From: a virus
Virus record (IMG/VR): IMGVR_UViG_3300020439_000095
Location: 1 to 22,039 of that record
DNA length: 22,039 nucleotides
Strand: one strand, 5' to 3'
The position numbers and the translations under genes are program-made. Each line of letters starts with the position of its first letter. Position 1 is the first letter of the stretch. The notes beneath the pieces are model-generated. The model was not told the DNA's origin and ran no database searches. It was given only the letters and a program-made list of their open reading frames with translations. Shown in pieces: positions 403 through 4,852 of the stretch.

Positions 403-1917
403 ATGCCTATTACAGTCGGAAGAAATCAACCTAATTCTTATAGGATTGAGAGTATTACTATTAGTAATAATGAAGGTAATTCCTATGAAGTAAGTAATTT
501 AATGGTAGACTTTGAGATATCTGAAAGTATTTATCAGATGTTTCTTACAGGTTCTATTACACTAGCGGACTCTGCAAATTTATTTAATCGTATCGGATTT
601 ACTGGTCAAGAATATATTCGTATTCATATCGGTGGTATACAGGGAAATGAAGAAATAGTCCCAGCAAACCAACAAATTGACCAAGTATTCCGAATATTTA
701 ATGTTTCAGTCCATTACAGAGACATAGATAACCCTACAAATACATTATATAATCTAGAATTTTGTTCTCCTTTGGAATATTTAGCAAAAACTCAGAGAAT
801 ATCTCAGATGTATAGAGGCAAGACTGGAGATATATTAAATAAAATATGTGTGGATAAATTATTATTTAAGGGGAATAAAAGCAATGCTAAAGTGCATACG
901 CCAGGGGGGAAGGAACTCGGTAACTTCTTTAGTGTCTTTCAGTCCGAGGGAGATGAAACCTCAGTCCTAGTACCTAATTGGTCAGTGTATAAAACCTTAG
1001 AGTGGCTGAGAGACCACACCTCAGACGACACAGATAAACCTTGGGGCGACTCTTATTACTTCTATCAGACAGCATTAAATGGCTTTAAGTTTCACAATGT
1101 GGAGTCTATGTATAAAGTAGAGTACTTAGAGGGAGATGTGAAGTTTGCTCCGCGTATGGGAGATGGAGATGACTCTTTTAATTACGACTTCGTAGATGCA
1201 CGCGGGAACGACATACTCTCCTACATTAAGAGAAACACACATAATGTCTTAGATAATCACTCTCACGGCCTATATGGGGGTGCTATACAGGTATATAACC
1301 CTATTGCAAAGACTTTGACCACTGTTGACAGTCAATTTACACAACAATTCTCTCTCAAACAGGGAAAAAGAGGTGGAAATGCAGTTACTTACAAGAAAAA
1401 GTCCTTAAGTGAAGCGCCAAATTTCCGATTATCTAATGAATCTATCAGAATACCACCAGATGGGGGCGTTGGAAGTGTCTTAGATACCGCTGCTGTTGCC
1501 CATAAGGGAGATAGTATCATAGAAAACCCAGGCGCGTCTATCACTTTTGATTATAATACACCTTTTTCCATGGGTCAAGGGGTAAATCCGAGTGGAAATA
1601 GTGTATTATATGGGACTGAGAGTGATAAATTAAACAGAGATAGAGTAGAAAAACTATTCGAGAGTAATCGTATGGACATTCAGATATCTGGGAGAACTAA
1701 TATCTCATCTGGTATGGTGATTAATATCGATATTAAACAACCAACTCCGACTACTACAGTGAAGGATGAGATAACGCACAATGGCAAGATGCTTGTAGAA
1801 GGTATTACTTGGAGAGGGACAGGAGATGGACTCGAAACACAACTCACAGTCACCTCGGATGGATATCAAGTGTCTATGGATACTCATGCAGACCATGGGC
1901 CAGAACCACAATATTAG
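403..1917 (+). CDS. 27: Baseplate central hub protein, gp27-like
   Basis: This 504-residue protein has the layout of T4 gp27 (391 residues), the trimeric hub that joins the tail tube to the gp5 spike. Residues about 30-75 hold a domain with the pattern GSITLADSANLFNRIGFTGQE. A second beta domain contains FRIFNVSVHYRD and LEFCSPLEYLA, then a helix (GKTGDILNKICVDKL). VPNWSVYKTLEWLRDHTSDD followed by SYYFYQTALNGFKFHN matches the gp27-family step where a helical segment leads into a YFFY-type strand. The C-terminal MDIQISGRTNISSGMVINID and KMLVEGITWRG match the gp27 end domain. No lysozyme or PAAR motif is visible. Base composition is clearly richer in GC than most of the window (sampled 60-base lines at 961 and 1021: 27 and 24 G+C), with CGC, GCG and CCG codons. 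The start has only a weak ribosome site. Hub identity is probable; the exact T4 gene number is inferred. Confidence 0.75.
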   Translation: MPITVGRNQPNSYRIESITISNNEGNSYEVSNLMVDFEISESIYQMFLTGSITLADSANLFNRIGFTGQEYIRIHIGGIQGNEEIVPANQQIDQVFRIFNVSVHYRDIDNPTNTLYNLEFCSPLEYLAKTQRISQMYRGKTGDILNKICVDKLLFKGNKSNAKVHTPGGKELGNFFSVFQSEGDETSVLVPNWSVYKTLEWLRDHTSDDTDKPWGDSYYFYQTALNGFKFHNVESMYKVEYLEGDVKFAPRMGDGDDSFNYDFVDARGNDILSYIKRNTHNVLDNHSHGLYGGAIQVYNPIAKTLTTVDSQFTQQFSLKQGKRGGNAVTYKKKSLSEAPNFRLSNESIRIPPDGGVGSVLDTAAVAHKGDSIIENPGASITFDYNTPFSMGQGVNPSGNSVLYGTESDKLNRDRVEKLFESNRMDIQISGRTNISSGMVINIDIKQPTPTTTVKDEITHNGKMLVEGITWRGTGDGLETQLTVTSDGYQVSMDTHADHGPEPQY

Positions 1918-1940
1918 AAAGCCTCGAAGGGACAGTAGTT

Positions 1941-1951
1941 TGGGACTCCTA
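1941..1951 (+). repeat. 11-bp repeat TGGGACTCCTA, copy 1
   Basis: This is the first of four exact copies of TGGGACTCCTA in the window, 24 nt after the gp27-like stop. The core GGACTCC is an odd-centred palindrome (GGA-C-TCC). Copies 1 and 2 share extra flanks: AGTTTGGGACTCCTAGGGT and AGTTATGGGACTCCTAGAGT. The role is unknown. Confidence 0.8.
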
Positions 1952-1963
1952 GGGTATTTTTTT
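1945..1963 (+). terminator. Possible weak intrinsic terminator after the hub gene
   Basis: A short stem, ACTC-CTA-GGGT (1945-1955, with one G-U pair), is followed by A and seven T residues (1957-1963). It overlaps repeat copy 1. The stem is only 4 bp, so termination would be weak. An alternative pairing of AGGG (1951-1954) with CCCT (1967-1970) would hide the T run in its loop. It would separate the hub gene from the panD island. Confidence 0.28.
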
Positions 1964-2001
1964 GTGCCCTTTGCTCAGCCCTAAAATGTCTTGGGAAGTT
2001 A

Positions 2002-2012
2002 TGGGACTCCTA
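2002..2012 (+). repeat. 11-bp repeat TGGGACTCCTA, copy 2
   Basis: Exact copy, 61 bp downstream of copy 1 and 20 bp upstream of copy 3, in the non-coding gap between the hub gene and the first small membrane ORF. Confidence 0.8.
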
Positions 2013-2021
2013 GAGTTTATC

Positions 2022-2032
2022 TGGGACTCCTA
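2022..2032 (+). repeat. 11-bp repeat TGGGACTCCTA, copy 3
   Basis: Exact copy, 20 bp after copy 2, about two helical turns. It lies at the point where composition drops into a very AT-rich stretch (TAAATAATAATAATAAA) leading to the next gene. It ends about 19 nt before the AGGAGA ribosome site at 2051-2056. Confidence 0.8.
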
Positions 2033-2061
2033 AATAATAATAATAAACATAGGAGAAATAT

Positions 2062-2202
2062 ATGTTAGAAAAAATAATAGACAAACATAAGGAAATGATG
2101 TATGATTTTATTGATTTAACTGGTATTAGTGACTATGAATTAGCATGGATTTGTTTTACTAAAGGAGTATTATTTACTCTTTTATTATTTTGGATATTTT
2201 AA
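2062..2202 (+). CDS. Small 46-residue membrane protein, unknown function
   Basis: This gene is too short for usual ORF cut-offs. The ATG at 2062 follows a strong ribosome site (AGGAGA, 2051-2056), which is the main reason to accept it. The product begins with a charged amphipathic part (MLEKIIDKHKEMMYDFIDL) and ends in one probable transmembrane helix at about residues 29-46 (WICFTKGVLFTLLLFWIF), so it is likely a C-tail-anchored inner-membrane peptide. The stop at 2200-2202 is one base before the next ATG, implying co-translation with the 61-residue ORF. The segment is very AT-rich (15 G+C in the 60 bases from 2101), unlike the hub gene upstream. I do not recognise a family. Holin or spanin functions are not supported: there is one helix and no lipobox. 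Confidence 0.62.
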   Translation: MLEKIIDKHKEMMYDFIDLTGISDYELAWICFTKGVLFTLLLFWIF

Positions 2203-2203
2203 T

Positions 2204-2389
2204 ATGGAATTTATATTCATACCTTTACTTGCATGTATTATTTTAATGATAGGGGAACATTCAAACCCTAGAGGTATGAATATTTTTTGGTATAAATTTA
2301 ATATTAAAAAAAGAGAATATTTTAAAGCATTAACAGAATATGATTCTGGTAATAATAAAGGGAATGGTAAACATTCAAGGATTAAATAA
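2204..2389 (+). CDS. Small 61-residue membrane-anchored protein, unknown function
   Basis: The product has a hydrophobic N-terminus (MEFIFIPLLACIILMIGEH, about residues 1-18) that could be a signal anchor, then a basic, polar tail (about residues 35-61, rich in K, N and G). A Cys at position 11 lies inside the hydrophobic run but lacks a proper lipobox. The ATG is one base after the previous stop, and the stop TAA (2387-2389) overlaps the panD ATG as TAATG. The three small genes 2062-2766 therefore look like one translationally coupled unit. No family is recognised. It shares the low GC of its left neighbour. Confidence 0.55.
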   Translation: MEFIFIPLLACIILMIGEHSNPRGMNIFWYKFNIKKREYFKALTEYDSGNNKGNGKHSRIK

Positions 2390-2766
2390 TGACACGATGT
2401 TTTTTAAATAGTAAAATACATGGTGCAGTTTGTACTGATGTAGATTTAGATTATGAAGGTTCTATTTTAATAGACGAAGACTGGATGGATGAGGTGGGAC
2501 TCCTAGTCCATGAACAGGTTGATGTCTATAATAAAACCAATGGTAACCGACATACGACTTATGTCCTACCTTTACCCAGAGGTTCGAATGAAGTTTCAGT
2601 CAATGGTGCAGGAGCTCATCTTACCAACATAGGTGATGAACTAATTATTTGTTCTTACATTTACCTAGACGATAACTACGAGGTTCTACCTTTACGACAT
2701 GAACCTAAAATAAAAATAATCGACCCTAAAGACCGAATGTACAGAGAACTATTAGGATTAAACTGA
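2389..2766 (+). CDS. panD: Aspartate 1-decarboxylase PanD (phage-borne)
   Basis: PanD decarboxylates L-aspartate to beta-alanine, the precursor that PanC joins to pantoate to make pantothenate (CoA pathway, cytosol). The 125-residue product lines up with bacterial PanD from residue 1 with no gaps in the core. It has K9 and H11 in SKIH, Y22 and the self-cleavage site G24-S25 in YEGS (Ser25 becomes the pyruvoyl cofactor), and R54, T57 and Y58 in NGNRHTTY. It also has N72 and A74 in SVNGAGAH and the GDELIICSY strand. Family length is about 115-140 residues, so it appears full length and active. The start overlaps the upstream stop (TAATG, 2387-2391), and its stop TGA overlaps the gp5 ATG (2764-2768), placing it in the structural operon. 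The first third is more AT-rich than the rest. A TGGGACTCCTA repeat lies at codons 36-39. Function follows from the family; activity in the infected host is inferred. Confidence 0.93.
   Translation: MTRCFLNSKIHGAVCTDVDLDYEGSILIDEDWMDEVGLLVHEQVDVYNKTNGNRHTTYVLPLPRGSNEVSVNGAGAHLTNIGDELIICSYIYLDDNYEVLPLRHEPKIKIIDPKDRMYRELLGLN
2495..2505 (+). repeat. 11-bp repeat TGGGACTCCTA, copy 4, inside panD
   Basis: An exact fourth copy lies in panD, read as V-G-L-L. It is 463 bp from copy 3. Composition upstream of it (2033-2494) is lower in GC than downstream. Near-matches occur at 3574-3582 (CTGGGACTC, gp5) and 5612-5622 (TGAGACTCCTA, gp6, one mismatch). Confidence 0.75.
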
Positions 2767-3851
2767 TGCCGAAATTTACAGGATTACAATCAAACTTTTA
2801 TACAGGAGTAGTCGAAGACCGAAACGACCCATTACAAGTTGGTCGAGTTCGTGTGCGTATCTATGGACTGCATACCGATGACAAGTCTCTTATTGCAACT
2901 CCAGACTTACCTTGGTGTGATGTCCTTATGCCGACCTCTACAGCATCCTTGTCTGGTCTAGGTTTGTCTCCACATGGTTTGGTTGAAGGTACAACTGTCA
3001 TGGGTATGTTCCGAGATGAATATGATATGCAAGACTTTGTAGTCATGGGTTCGTTGTTTGGTATACCAAGTAATGACTGGAAAATACCACAGGGTGATGG
3101 TGCTAATCCAATATCTCGTAGTGCCGAACATGGATTCAATGACCCTCGTAGAGACACTAGAAAAGATTACATCGACTCTATCGATGGTGCAAAAAATAGT
3201 GGTAATGGTCGTAACTGGAATCTAACTCAAGCACTAGACACTTCACCAAGAATCCCAGATAGTTTAGACCAGAAGTTAGATGGTTCTGGTACTAAAATTA
3301 ATAATCCAGATAAAGGTGTAAGATATCCAAAAGAGTCTTATACTAAAACTTCTAGCTCCGATGTAAATAAACTTGCAACGACTGGTGGTGCAAGTAATTA
3401 TCCAAATAATATGATTGAAAGGAGTAAAGGTAATACAGTCAAAGAATTATCCAGAGGTAAGTCAGTAGTAAATCCGACCTATCCTTTTAATCATGTAATA
3501 GAATCTGAATCTGGTCATGTCCTAGAATTAGATGACACACCAGCATCCGAAAGAATTCACATGTATCATAGGTCTGGGACTCGTTTAGAAGTATTACCAG
3601 ATGGTTCTCAAACTATGAAAATAGTCAACGACTCTTATGAGATTACTTTAAAAGATAAGAAAATATTAATTGGTGGAAGTGCAGATATAGAACTCTCTAA
3701 TGGTGATTATAATTTAATTACTCAGAAAGGTACTACCGAAGATGGTGGTAATGTGTTTATCACTGTAGATAAAGACTGCACAATTACTTCTAAAGGTGGT
3801 GCAATTAAATTAAAAGGAAAAGTATCAATTAATGGTACTGCATATGATTAA
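2766..3851 (+). CDS. 5: Baseplate hub/spike protein gp5-like, no lysozyme domain
   Basis: This 361-residue protein carries the N-terminal OB-fold of T4 gp5 and VgrG-type spikes (residues about 5-110: FYTGVVEDRNDPLQVGRVRV, then LPWCDVLMP, GLVEGTTVMGMF and VVMGSLFG). A polar, proline/asparagine-rich linker (about 115-240) follows. The C-terminal spike begins at about residue 246 (ESGHVLELDDTPASERIHMY) and continues as alternating beta strands to GTAYD. T4 gp5 is 575 residues because a lysozyme domain lies between these parts; here that space holds only the linker, and no catalytic Glu/Asp/Thr lysozyme arrangement is visible. It would trimerise under the gp27-like hub and form the membrane-puncturing needle. 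The ATG overlaps the panD stop (TGATG) and the stop overlaps the next ATG (TAATG). AGGAT at about 2753-2757 may serve as ribosome site. Confidence 0.88.
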   Translation: MPKFTGLQSNFYTGVVEDRNDPLQVGRVRVRIYGLHTDDKSLIATPDLPWCDVLMPTSTASLSGLGLSPHGLVEGTTVMGMFRDEYDMQDFVVMGSLFGIPSNDWKIPQGDGANPISRSAEHGFNDPRRDTRKDYIDSIDGAKNSGNGRNWNLTQALDTSPRIPDSLDQKLDGSGTKINNPDKGVRYPKESYTKTSSSDVNKLATTGGASNYPNNMIERSKGNTVKELSRGKSVVNPTYPFNHVIESESGHVLELDDTPASERIHMYHRSGTRLEVLPDGSQTMKIVNDSYEITLKDKKILIGGSADIELSNGDYNLITQKGTTEDGGNVFITVDKDCTITSKGGAIKLKGKVSINGTAYD

Positions 3852-4852
3852 TGACAACCTCAGTTTCAGTTCCATGTCCTAAAGTATTTGTTCCAACTGC
3901 TGAAGAATTAGAAAAAGTAATTATATCCATAGGTAACAAATATGGTTGGCAATACTTTGAACCGATTGAAGAAATATTAGGTGCATTTCCTTTATCTCAT
4001 ACATGGGATAAAATAAACTTTGATGTCCCAGAATTAGAATGGGAAAAAAGAATTCAATGTATGGTTGAGGAATTTAAATTATTTCCAGCCATAAAAATTG
4101 CAGAAGCAATATCTAAACTAGGCCCAATTGATTTAGTTATAACTGACCCAATCTTTGGAGTTCAAGTTGATATACTTAGATTAATAAATGACCCAGCATA
4201 TAAAGGTTCTCTTGCAACAGAGTTTGCAACAAAGTTTGATGAATTTAAAGCATTGTTACCACAAATATCTTTAGAAAATTGGGATGGTACAGATGGAATA
4301 GACAATCCAGCTTTACTTGCAACTCAAATGTTTAAAGAAATGATTGACGAAGTTAAAAAAATGATAACTCAAAATATTTATTATGGGTTTCTTAAACTAA
4401 TAGAGTTGTTTGAAGAAGCATGGGAATTATTTGATTTTGATTTACCACTTACAATAATAATAGAGATATTAACTTTTGATATTGATGGATTTTTACTTGA
4501 ACTTAAAAAAGCTGCAAAAGATGCTGGTAAAGATTTTAAAGAAATGTTATTAGAAGCTAAATTACCCCTTATAGAAATAACAATAGGTGATTTACTTAAT
4601 TTAGAAAACGAAGATAAATTAATTGACTTTCCTAATTTTGATGTGCAAAAAATAATTGATAGGATTAAAGCATACATGAGAGATTTCCCACAAAAATTAT
4701 TAGAAGACTGGATGAAGACAGTTTTAGATTTTTTAGAAGAAATTAAATTTTCAATACCAATTCCAATTCCATTTGACCTTTGTATGTTCCTAGAAGAAGT
4801 TGGTTTTCCAAAAGAGATATCTGTTTCTAATCTAGTACTAGAAGGGACATAA
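3851..4852 (+). CDS. Uncharacterised helical protein between gp5 and gp25
   Basis: The product is 333 residues, predominantly alpha-helical and acidic, with many E/D/K/L/I residues and few glycines, unlike the beta-rich neighbours. It begins with a proline-rich MTTSVSVPCPKVFVPTAEEL. It has long amphipathic helices (for example residues 168-200 and 220-245) and ends in IPIPIPFDLCMFLEEVGFPK. The repeated IPIPIPF segment and the helical character could suit a membrane-contacting or tube/chaperone role, but I see no diagnostic motif. The start codon overlaps the gp5 stop (TAATG); the next gene starts 8 nt after its stop. The coding sequence is very AT-rich (13 G+C in the 60 bases from 4441). Its fixed place in the hub/wedge operon suggests a virion or assembly protein. 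T4 has no obvious counterpart at this position. Confidence 0.8.
   Translation: MTTSVSVPCPKVFVPTAEELEKVIISIGNKYGWQYFEPIEEILGAFPLSHTWDKINFDVPELEWEKRIQCMVEEFKLFPAIKIAEAISKLGPIDLVITDPIFGVQVDILRLINDPAYKGSLATEFATKFDEFKALLPQISLENWDGTDGIDNPALLATQMFKEMIDEVKKMITQNIYYGFLKLIELFEEAWELFDFDLPLTIIIEILTFDIDGFLLELKKAAKDAGKDFKEMLLEAKLPLIEITIGDLLNLENEDKLIDFPNFDVQKIIDRIKAYMRDFPQKLLEDWMKTVLDFLEEIKFSIPIPIPFDLCMFLEEVGFPKEISVSNLVLEGT

Follow-up and report, generated by a model that had tools for sequence, protein, structure and literature searches.

An aspartate decarboxylase gene between tail and baseplate hub genes of a T4-like phage clade, accompanied by a repeated DNA motif

Introduction

Aspartate 1-decarboxylase (PanD) is best known for pantothenate synthesis. 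In the stretch of viral DNA analysed here (22,039 nucleotides, positions 1 to 22,039 of IMG/VR record IMGVR_UViG_3300020439_000095; hereafter the window), an open reading frame (ORF) resembling panD is embedded in a block of baseplate genes. The initial annotation took it for a complete enzyme, with packaging in the virion or a structural use as another possibility, and the locus raises the question of what such a gene does between genes for the tail and the baseplate hub. We find that panD is an ordinary enzyme gene in an unusual place; the less expected part of the finding is a short repeated motif at the same locus.

Results and Discussion

Organization of the panD locus

The gene order in the window is gp27-like, a non-coding leader, orf46, orf61, panD, gp5, a 333-aa ORF, gp25 and gp6. 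The genes that frame panD, and its predicted processing site, are as follows.

403 to 1917, + strand: gp27-like tail protein, which bounds the slot on its upstream side (PHROGs family phrog_350, tail protein; E 3.4e-44)
2062 to 2202, + strand: orf46, a small hydrophobic protein and conserved upstream neighbour of panD (36 of 36 loci)
2204 to 2389, + strand: orf61, a small hydrophobic protein that varies in presence within the clade
2389 to 2766, + strand: panD, aspartate 1-decarboxylase proenzyme (125-aa ORF; profiles, residues and model)
2458 to 2463, + strand: Gly24-Ser25 codons of panD, the predicted self-cleavage and pyruvoyl site (sequence and alignments)
2766 to 3851, + strand: gp5 baseplate hub protein with an OB domain, the downstream border of the slot (PF06714, E 1.7e-20; phrog_430, E 4.4e-73)

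The coding sequences are tightly packed: panD shares one base with the ORF before it (TAATG, from 2387) and one with gp5 after it (TGATG, from 2764), and AGGAG is present at 2051-2055 ahead of orf46. The placement of panD between two hub genes, a 27-like gene and gene 5, is real and conserved as to position, and gp5 is confirmed; the gp27-like gene, however, is identified only through phrog_350, with no match in Pfam, and since the leader and two small ORFs separate it from panD the two are not direct neighbours. A Pfam search found no lysozyme domain in gp5 (2766-3851); a match to a phage lysozyme family was seen in one other ORF of G001, a 146-kb relative. No tRNA genes were found in the window, and neither sigma-70 promoters nor terminators near panD were more numerous than in shuffled sequence. 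Host contamination as the source of panD was ruled out by its phage neighbour genes.

The panD product

The 125-aa product matches the PF02261 profile across positions 1-113 of 115 (E 1.7e-34; 118.6 bits, with a cut-off of 25) and scores 111.9 bits with the NCBIfam panD equivalog model TIGR00223, for which the cut-off is 106; the description of the gene as a full PanD holds by both measures. There are 25 distinct matches among PDB sequences, every one of them named aspartate decarboxylase, and E. coli PanD (1ppy) is matched with an E-value of 3.1e-24 and 46 identities in 120 aligned residues. No PHROGs family matches at E 0.01.

With residues numbered as in E. coli PanD by alignment with cellular PanDs, K9, H11, Y22, G24, S25, R54, T57, Y58, N72, G73, A74, A76 and H77 are all found in the window PanD, which includes every catalytic residue named at the outset. 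The same 13 residues are invariant across 31 rows of the clade and are kept in 14 other aligned rows of two viral lineages. The roles of those other than the Gly24-Ser25 cleavage site are general background on the enzyme.

An AlphaFold2 model of the protein has a mean pLDDT of 91.0 when more diverse rows are supplied (53.3 from clade sequences only) and has the double-psi beta barrel of PanD; E. coli PanD entries head its matches in the PDB, with 1ppy at the top (E 3.5e-14, TM 0.82/0.89). Family, catalytic residues, predicted fold and length are all like those of bacterial PanD (EC 4.1.1.11; PF02261, TIGR00223; E. coli 1ppy), and to judge from these comparisons the gene encodes an intact PanD that probably has enzyme activity. 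Cleavage of PanD is placed at Gly24-Ser25 in the available sections of PMC4537548, according to which class II PanD requires no PanM/PanZ for this step.

Distribution of panD in the clade and its relatives

Searching IMG/VR with the window PanD yielded 39 contigs. An alignment of PanDs as query yielded 45, among them three additional hub-type contigs (L064, L069 and L076) and four of a second lineage (L070-L073), and a third scan yielded 46, including three distant ones (L292-L294) at 40-48%. Among the 39 loci, orf46 is upstream in all 36 that reach past the 5′ side of panD, and the gp27-like gene in 35 of these, the contig L016 beginning after that gene; gp5 is downstream in 37 of the 37 that extend that way.

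As a second marker we used gp6, in an alignment search from which the best 80 of 385 loci were taken, many of the contigs being shared with the 39-contig PanD set. At gp6 identities of at least 80% to the window there are 37 loci, 20 of them with both slot borders, and panD is present in 20/20. A sister group at 74% identity comprises three loci, all with both borders, and panD is found in 0/3, the slot holding other small ORFs instead. Below 65% there are 40 loci, and the 29 with both borders, which in this group lie merely 33-152 bases apart, have panD in 0/29. Partly covered loci, 28 in number (17 at 80% or above and 11 below 65%), stand outside these counts; part of panD is visible in six of the 17. 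The presence in 20/20 against 0/3 and 0/29 indicates that panD was most likely acquired on the branch leading to this clade, for which the gp27-like to gp5 slot would simply be the insertion site.

One contig goes against an unbroken rule. L196 is 98.8% identical to L076 up to the end of orf61 and then continues with an unknown ORF and other genes and no panD; in its region 2937-4200 the hub cassette stops just ahead of where panD would be, and the break may reflect a rearranged genome or an assembly join. L041 (NYUU01000001.1) is a 30-kb contig of this clade with a hub-type panD locus in a metagenome-assembled genome (MAG) labelled Synechococcus; its neighbours are phage genes, so L041 is phage DNA in that bin, and no other panD was found in the MAG. 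The phages of the clade are probably marine, to judge from their nearest cultured relatives.

In the second lineage (L070-L073), with PanDs 71-74% identical, panD is followed by one small ORF and then by PhoH, and the setting has no match to any hub gene of the window. In L070, genes for a peptidase M15 and a carbamoyltransferase lie near panD, and a gene for an AMP-binding enzyme lies some 3 kb upstream of it.

Origins, and panD in other phages

In a tree of 38 rows, the hub-type and PhoH-type PanDs, 15 in all, lie together on one side of a branch with support of 100/98, and the cellular PanDs sampled branch apart from them. The row adjoining the viral group is a deltaproteobacterial MAG with a long branch, and its position is unsure according to the program's own warning. 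The top cellular identity is 51% over 85% of the query (a Monoglobus plasmid, among the best 20 of 294 records), and a match at 49% was found in the phylum of the Synechococcus-labelled MAG, in which matches came from 74 of 98 genomes, phage contig L041 accounting for one of them; the cellular sampling for a donor contains no SAR11 or OM43 genome.

A panD in a phage is of a kind already known, since the gene is annotated in two unrelated cultured phages, the Gordonia/Rhodococcus phage Jace and Achromobacter phage 2-1. Their PanDs are 40% and 33% identical, respectively, over 70% of the query, the genes lie beside nuclease, polymerase or DNA-binding genes, and the Achromobacter 2-1 protein is without R54 and N72. 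Both, together with a faecal phage contig, fall outside the viral PanD group in the tree, so that panD entered phages more than once, unless long branches have been misplaced. Further panD matches in records labelled as phage (H1-H11) may be bacterial DNA; one of these, H7, is an Acinetobacter phage record in which panD adjoins pth.

The supposition that metabolic genes stay outside structural blocks is a weak one: the Pelagibacter phages HTVC008M and Mosig, which are related Kyanoviridae, carry 2OG-Fe(II) oxygenases and other host-like genes within the baseplate block. These are other genes and lie between gp5 and gp25, whereas the panD of the window lies between gp27 and gp5; neither phage is among the 15 panD matches of the phage search. 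As to earlier reports, we take K00606 to be panB. This identifier is listed in the accessible portion of PMC4022391, and PMC7863781 mentions, in a passage that names no genes, viral sequences from a sponge in which the pathway to pantothenate and CoA was found. Titles, term counts and abstract openings of the literature matches listed gave no recognisable report of panD in T4-like marine phages, and "panD" and "pantothenate" as whole words are absent from the main text of PMC10980836, PMC11126160 and PMC11128263, for each of which a term count gives one "pand".

The phage, its host and the supply of CoA

G001 (L002), with 106 of its 172 ORFs scanned (25 of the 37 families of the third batch being listed), encodes gp23, gp20, UvsW, UvsY, gp45 and gp32 along with further T4-type genes. 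By capsid protein the closest cultured phages are Melnitz, which infects Methylophilales (68.5%), and the Pelagibacter phage HTVC008M (64.2%), with cyanophages further off, and these affinities make a heterotroph the more likely host than a cyanobacterium. The same genome has host-like matches (L161-L168) to alternative oxidase, NifU-like and Fe-S assembly proteins, a redoxin, cytochrome c and a CHASE2/cyclase protein.

We consider it likely that panD encodes a genuine pyruvoyl-dependent aspartate 1-decarboxylase and is an auxiliary metabolic gene of the phage, and extend this assessment to the steps that the explanation comprises. The chain would cleave itself at Gly24-Ser25 to generate the pyruvoyl group and would convert aspartate to beta-alanine, which the PanC of the host would couple with pantoate to give pantothenate and, from it, CoA. 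Transcription of panD would be late, from a TAAATA at the end of the leader and together with orf46, orf61 and gp5, so that the supply of beta-alanine would go up while virions are being made. No panC was found in four clade records (one of 146 kb, the others fragments of 37-76 kb), so the host would have to supply PanC; two cytidylyltransferase-like proteins of G001 were rejected as other CoA genes, as they match NMNAT, NadD or CoaD models far below cut-off. We infer a role in CoA supply, and a limitation of the host by CoA during infection would be plausible. The presence of pantothenate in the growth medium of Melnitz's OM43 host, given in the available part of PMC9004378, is a weak hint.

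An active decarboxylase could also, through beta-alanine or by removing aspartate, serve an end other than CoA, such as osmolyte, nitrogen or pH control or the making of another product. The lack of panC in the four records would suit such a role, as would the AMP-binding and carbamoyltransferase genes near the L070 panD, but the slot ORFs of nine clade loci are small and point to no such partner, and pantothenate synthesis, the pathway named at the outset, is also where the excerpted text of PMC4537548 places the enzyme; we regard a benefit of this other kind as unlikely.

Selection on panD and its exchange among phages

Nei-Gojobori dN/dS values were calculated between the window and 15 members of the clade, of which 13 to 15 could be used for any one gene. 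The median for panD is 0.113, the lowest among the seven genes tested, with a median dS of 0.97 that puts dS near saturation; gp25 and gp6 have medians of 0.19, gp5 and the gp27-like gene have 0.27, and the 333-aa ORF and orf46 are at 0.43 and 0.46, respectively. We observe a host-type gene that lies among viral neighbours and is kept intact by selection, as expected of an auxiliary metabolic gene.

The panD of L003 is 98% identical to that of the window (dS 0.21), whereas the gp27-like and gp5 proteins beside it are only 54% and 64% identical (dS 1.47 and 0.99). Identity is 88-100% along panD and at most 85% in the flanks, with steps at the panD ends; recombination at the repeated motif described below was rejected, as the jump occurs at the gene ends and not at motif copies. 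This pattern indicates that panD was swapped alone among phages whose hub genes differ, and it counts against a part fitted to the hub. L005 has the same tendency, and L018 the opposite one, its neighbours being closer than its panD, as expected if alleles have been mixed.

These data bear on the proposal that the baseplate hub has co-opted PanD as a structural component or a packaged protein. Its position between tail and hub genes, with an overlap into gp5, is in keeping with that proposal, and so is a C-terminal tail ending in (D/E)(R/K)xYRELLG(L/I) in 28 of the 31 clade rows; this tail, however, is absent from L030-L032 and from L070, L072 and L073. Conservation is that of an enzyme, with all of the catalytic residues retained, which a structural part would not need, and a dN/dS lower than that of the neighbouring genes; a near-identical PanD lies beside the divergent hub proteins of L003, and the other viral lineage has its panD away from hub genes altogether. 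We judge a hub role to be very improbable, and a function as an auxiliary metabolic gene to be likely.

A repeated motif in the leader and within panD

The features of the leader, and an invariant block in panD, are as follows.

1918 to 2061, + strand: non-coding leader of the orf46-panD cassette, aligned over 24 and 19 sequences, window included
1941 to 1951, + strand: TGGGACTCCTA copy 1, also in relatives
2002 to 2012, + strand: TGGGACTCCTA copy 2, also in relatives
2022 to 2032, + strand: TGGGACTCCTA copy 3, continuing into TAAATA, also in relatives
2031 to 2036, + strand: TAAATA, T4 late-promoter-like by word match (TATAAATA in several relatives)
2488 to 2504, + strand: 17-nt block GATGAGGTGGGACTCCT inside panD, with synonymous sites also invariant

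The 11-mer TGGGACTCCTA is nearly palindromic (TGGGA-C-TCCTA), and on both strands of the window it has four exact matches and one with a single mismatch, against 0.34 expected. The fourth copy (2495-2505) is in panD, with all except its last base inside the GATGAGGTGGGACTCCT block. TAAATA resembles the T4 late-promoter consensus.

The arrangement recurs throughout 39 loci that have orf46, some of which are near-identical. At least three copies of the 10-mer GGGACTCCTA are present in the 200 bases ahead of orf46 in 38 of them, the sole exception being L016, where this region is cut by the contig end; TAAATA follows within 14 bases of the last leader copy in 39/39, and GATGAGGTGGGACTCCT is found inside panD in 39/39. 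Among 22 panDs less than 97% identical to one another, GATGAGGTGGGACTCCT is the longest invariant run in the first 270 nt, the next longest being 7, and five invariant codons in a row have p 0.012 in a shuffle of invariant positions that ignores codon choice and relatedness.

All four copies of TGGGACTCCTA in G001 are at this locus, and in four other clade records GGGACTCCTA occurs only at the locus or up to about 3.5 kb downstream; single copies of the 8-mer GGGACTCC turn up at other places in G001 and G003. Within the gp6 set the 10-mer is found 103 times forward and five times reverse in the 175 kb up to gp6, and 0 times in the 171 kb beyond; the sister group has 14 forward copies and one reverse up to gp6 and none beyond, and the outer gp6 group has no copies of the 10-mer. 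Nor do L070 and L072 of the second lineage contain any copy of the TGGGACTCCTA motif. Several copies of GGGACTCC lie between gp5 and gp25 in the sister clade L118-L120, which has no panD, two of them shortly before TATAAATA (L118 at 6449 and L120 at 6837).

Motif pairs were also found in 14 viral stretches where none of the ten query proteins has a match, the comparison covering the stretches themselves; their GC ranges over 0.32-0.67 and some resemble one another. Among 194 genomes from a single phylum one has such pairs, and it is the phage contig. The 14 stretches in which the motif is clustered include L193, L212 and L220, and in L202, L206 and L215 runs of short ORFs that start like MNxY(E/D/K)(R/K)I are beside such clusters. 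A literature search for GGGACTCC together with "phage" gave a match on an unrelated subject only.

A structured RNA in the leader is not supported. RNAalifold, applied to 19 sequences, pairs just two invariant repeats with each other (12 pairs, one double change), six single folds of the leader have z from -0.24 to -2.25, and a search of 1700-3000 with Rfam produced two matches, each well short of its cut-off. GC skew in G001 was uninformative as to an origin, the cumulative skew falling nearly throughout except in a stretch of opposite-strand genes. Another model considered for the leader is a mobile regulatory cassette of the sort found in T4-type phages.

We favour the motif as a putative protein-binding control element at late promoters, with an iteron-like replication element recalling T4 oriE as the main alternative. 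T4 oriE presumably lies near gene 5, and the window likewise has clustered short direct repeats near gene 5. The oriE iterons are described in PMC3016281 as short direct repeats that are conserved in related T4-like genomes and whose role is undefined. The likeness is one of description, and unlike oriE the motif of the window stands beside a late-type box and inside a coding gene. T4 late promoters lack an upstream element according to PMC2988020, and as a control element the motif would be an addition to these promoters.

A bolder reading, held tentatively and at slightly short of even confidence, is that TGGGACTCCTA is an undescribed phage cis-acting element, acting in arrays, through which the hub-panD cassette of this clade may be controlled in its late transcription or its replication. 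The copy fixed within panD may then tie a metabolic gene, through DNA or RNA, to the control of structural genes. That the panD frame is kept mainly for such an element, with the enzyme secondary, is scarcely credible: the 17-nt invariant block is as it would predict, but purifying selection acts on the protein, all catalytic residues included, and L070 and L072 retain the enzyme without the motif.

Implications

The finding extends the gene repertoire of one T4-like phage clade to the step of vitamin B5 and CoA synthesis that yields beta-alanine, and there is evidence that selection acts on the gene. Should the enzyme be active, one could test whether phage growth in the likely hosts, streamlined marine heterotrophs, is limited by CoA precursors. 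The repeat motif, common to otherwise unrelated viral contigs, would offer a new way into the study of gene control in phages that are uncultured.
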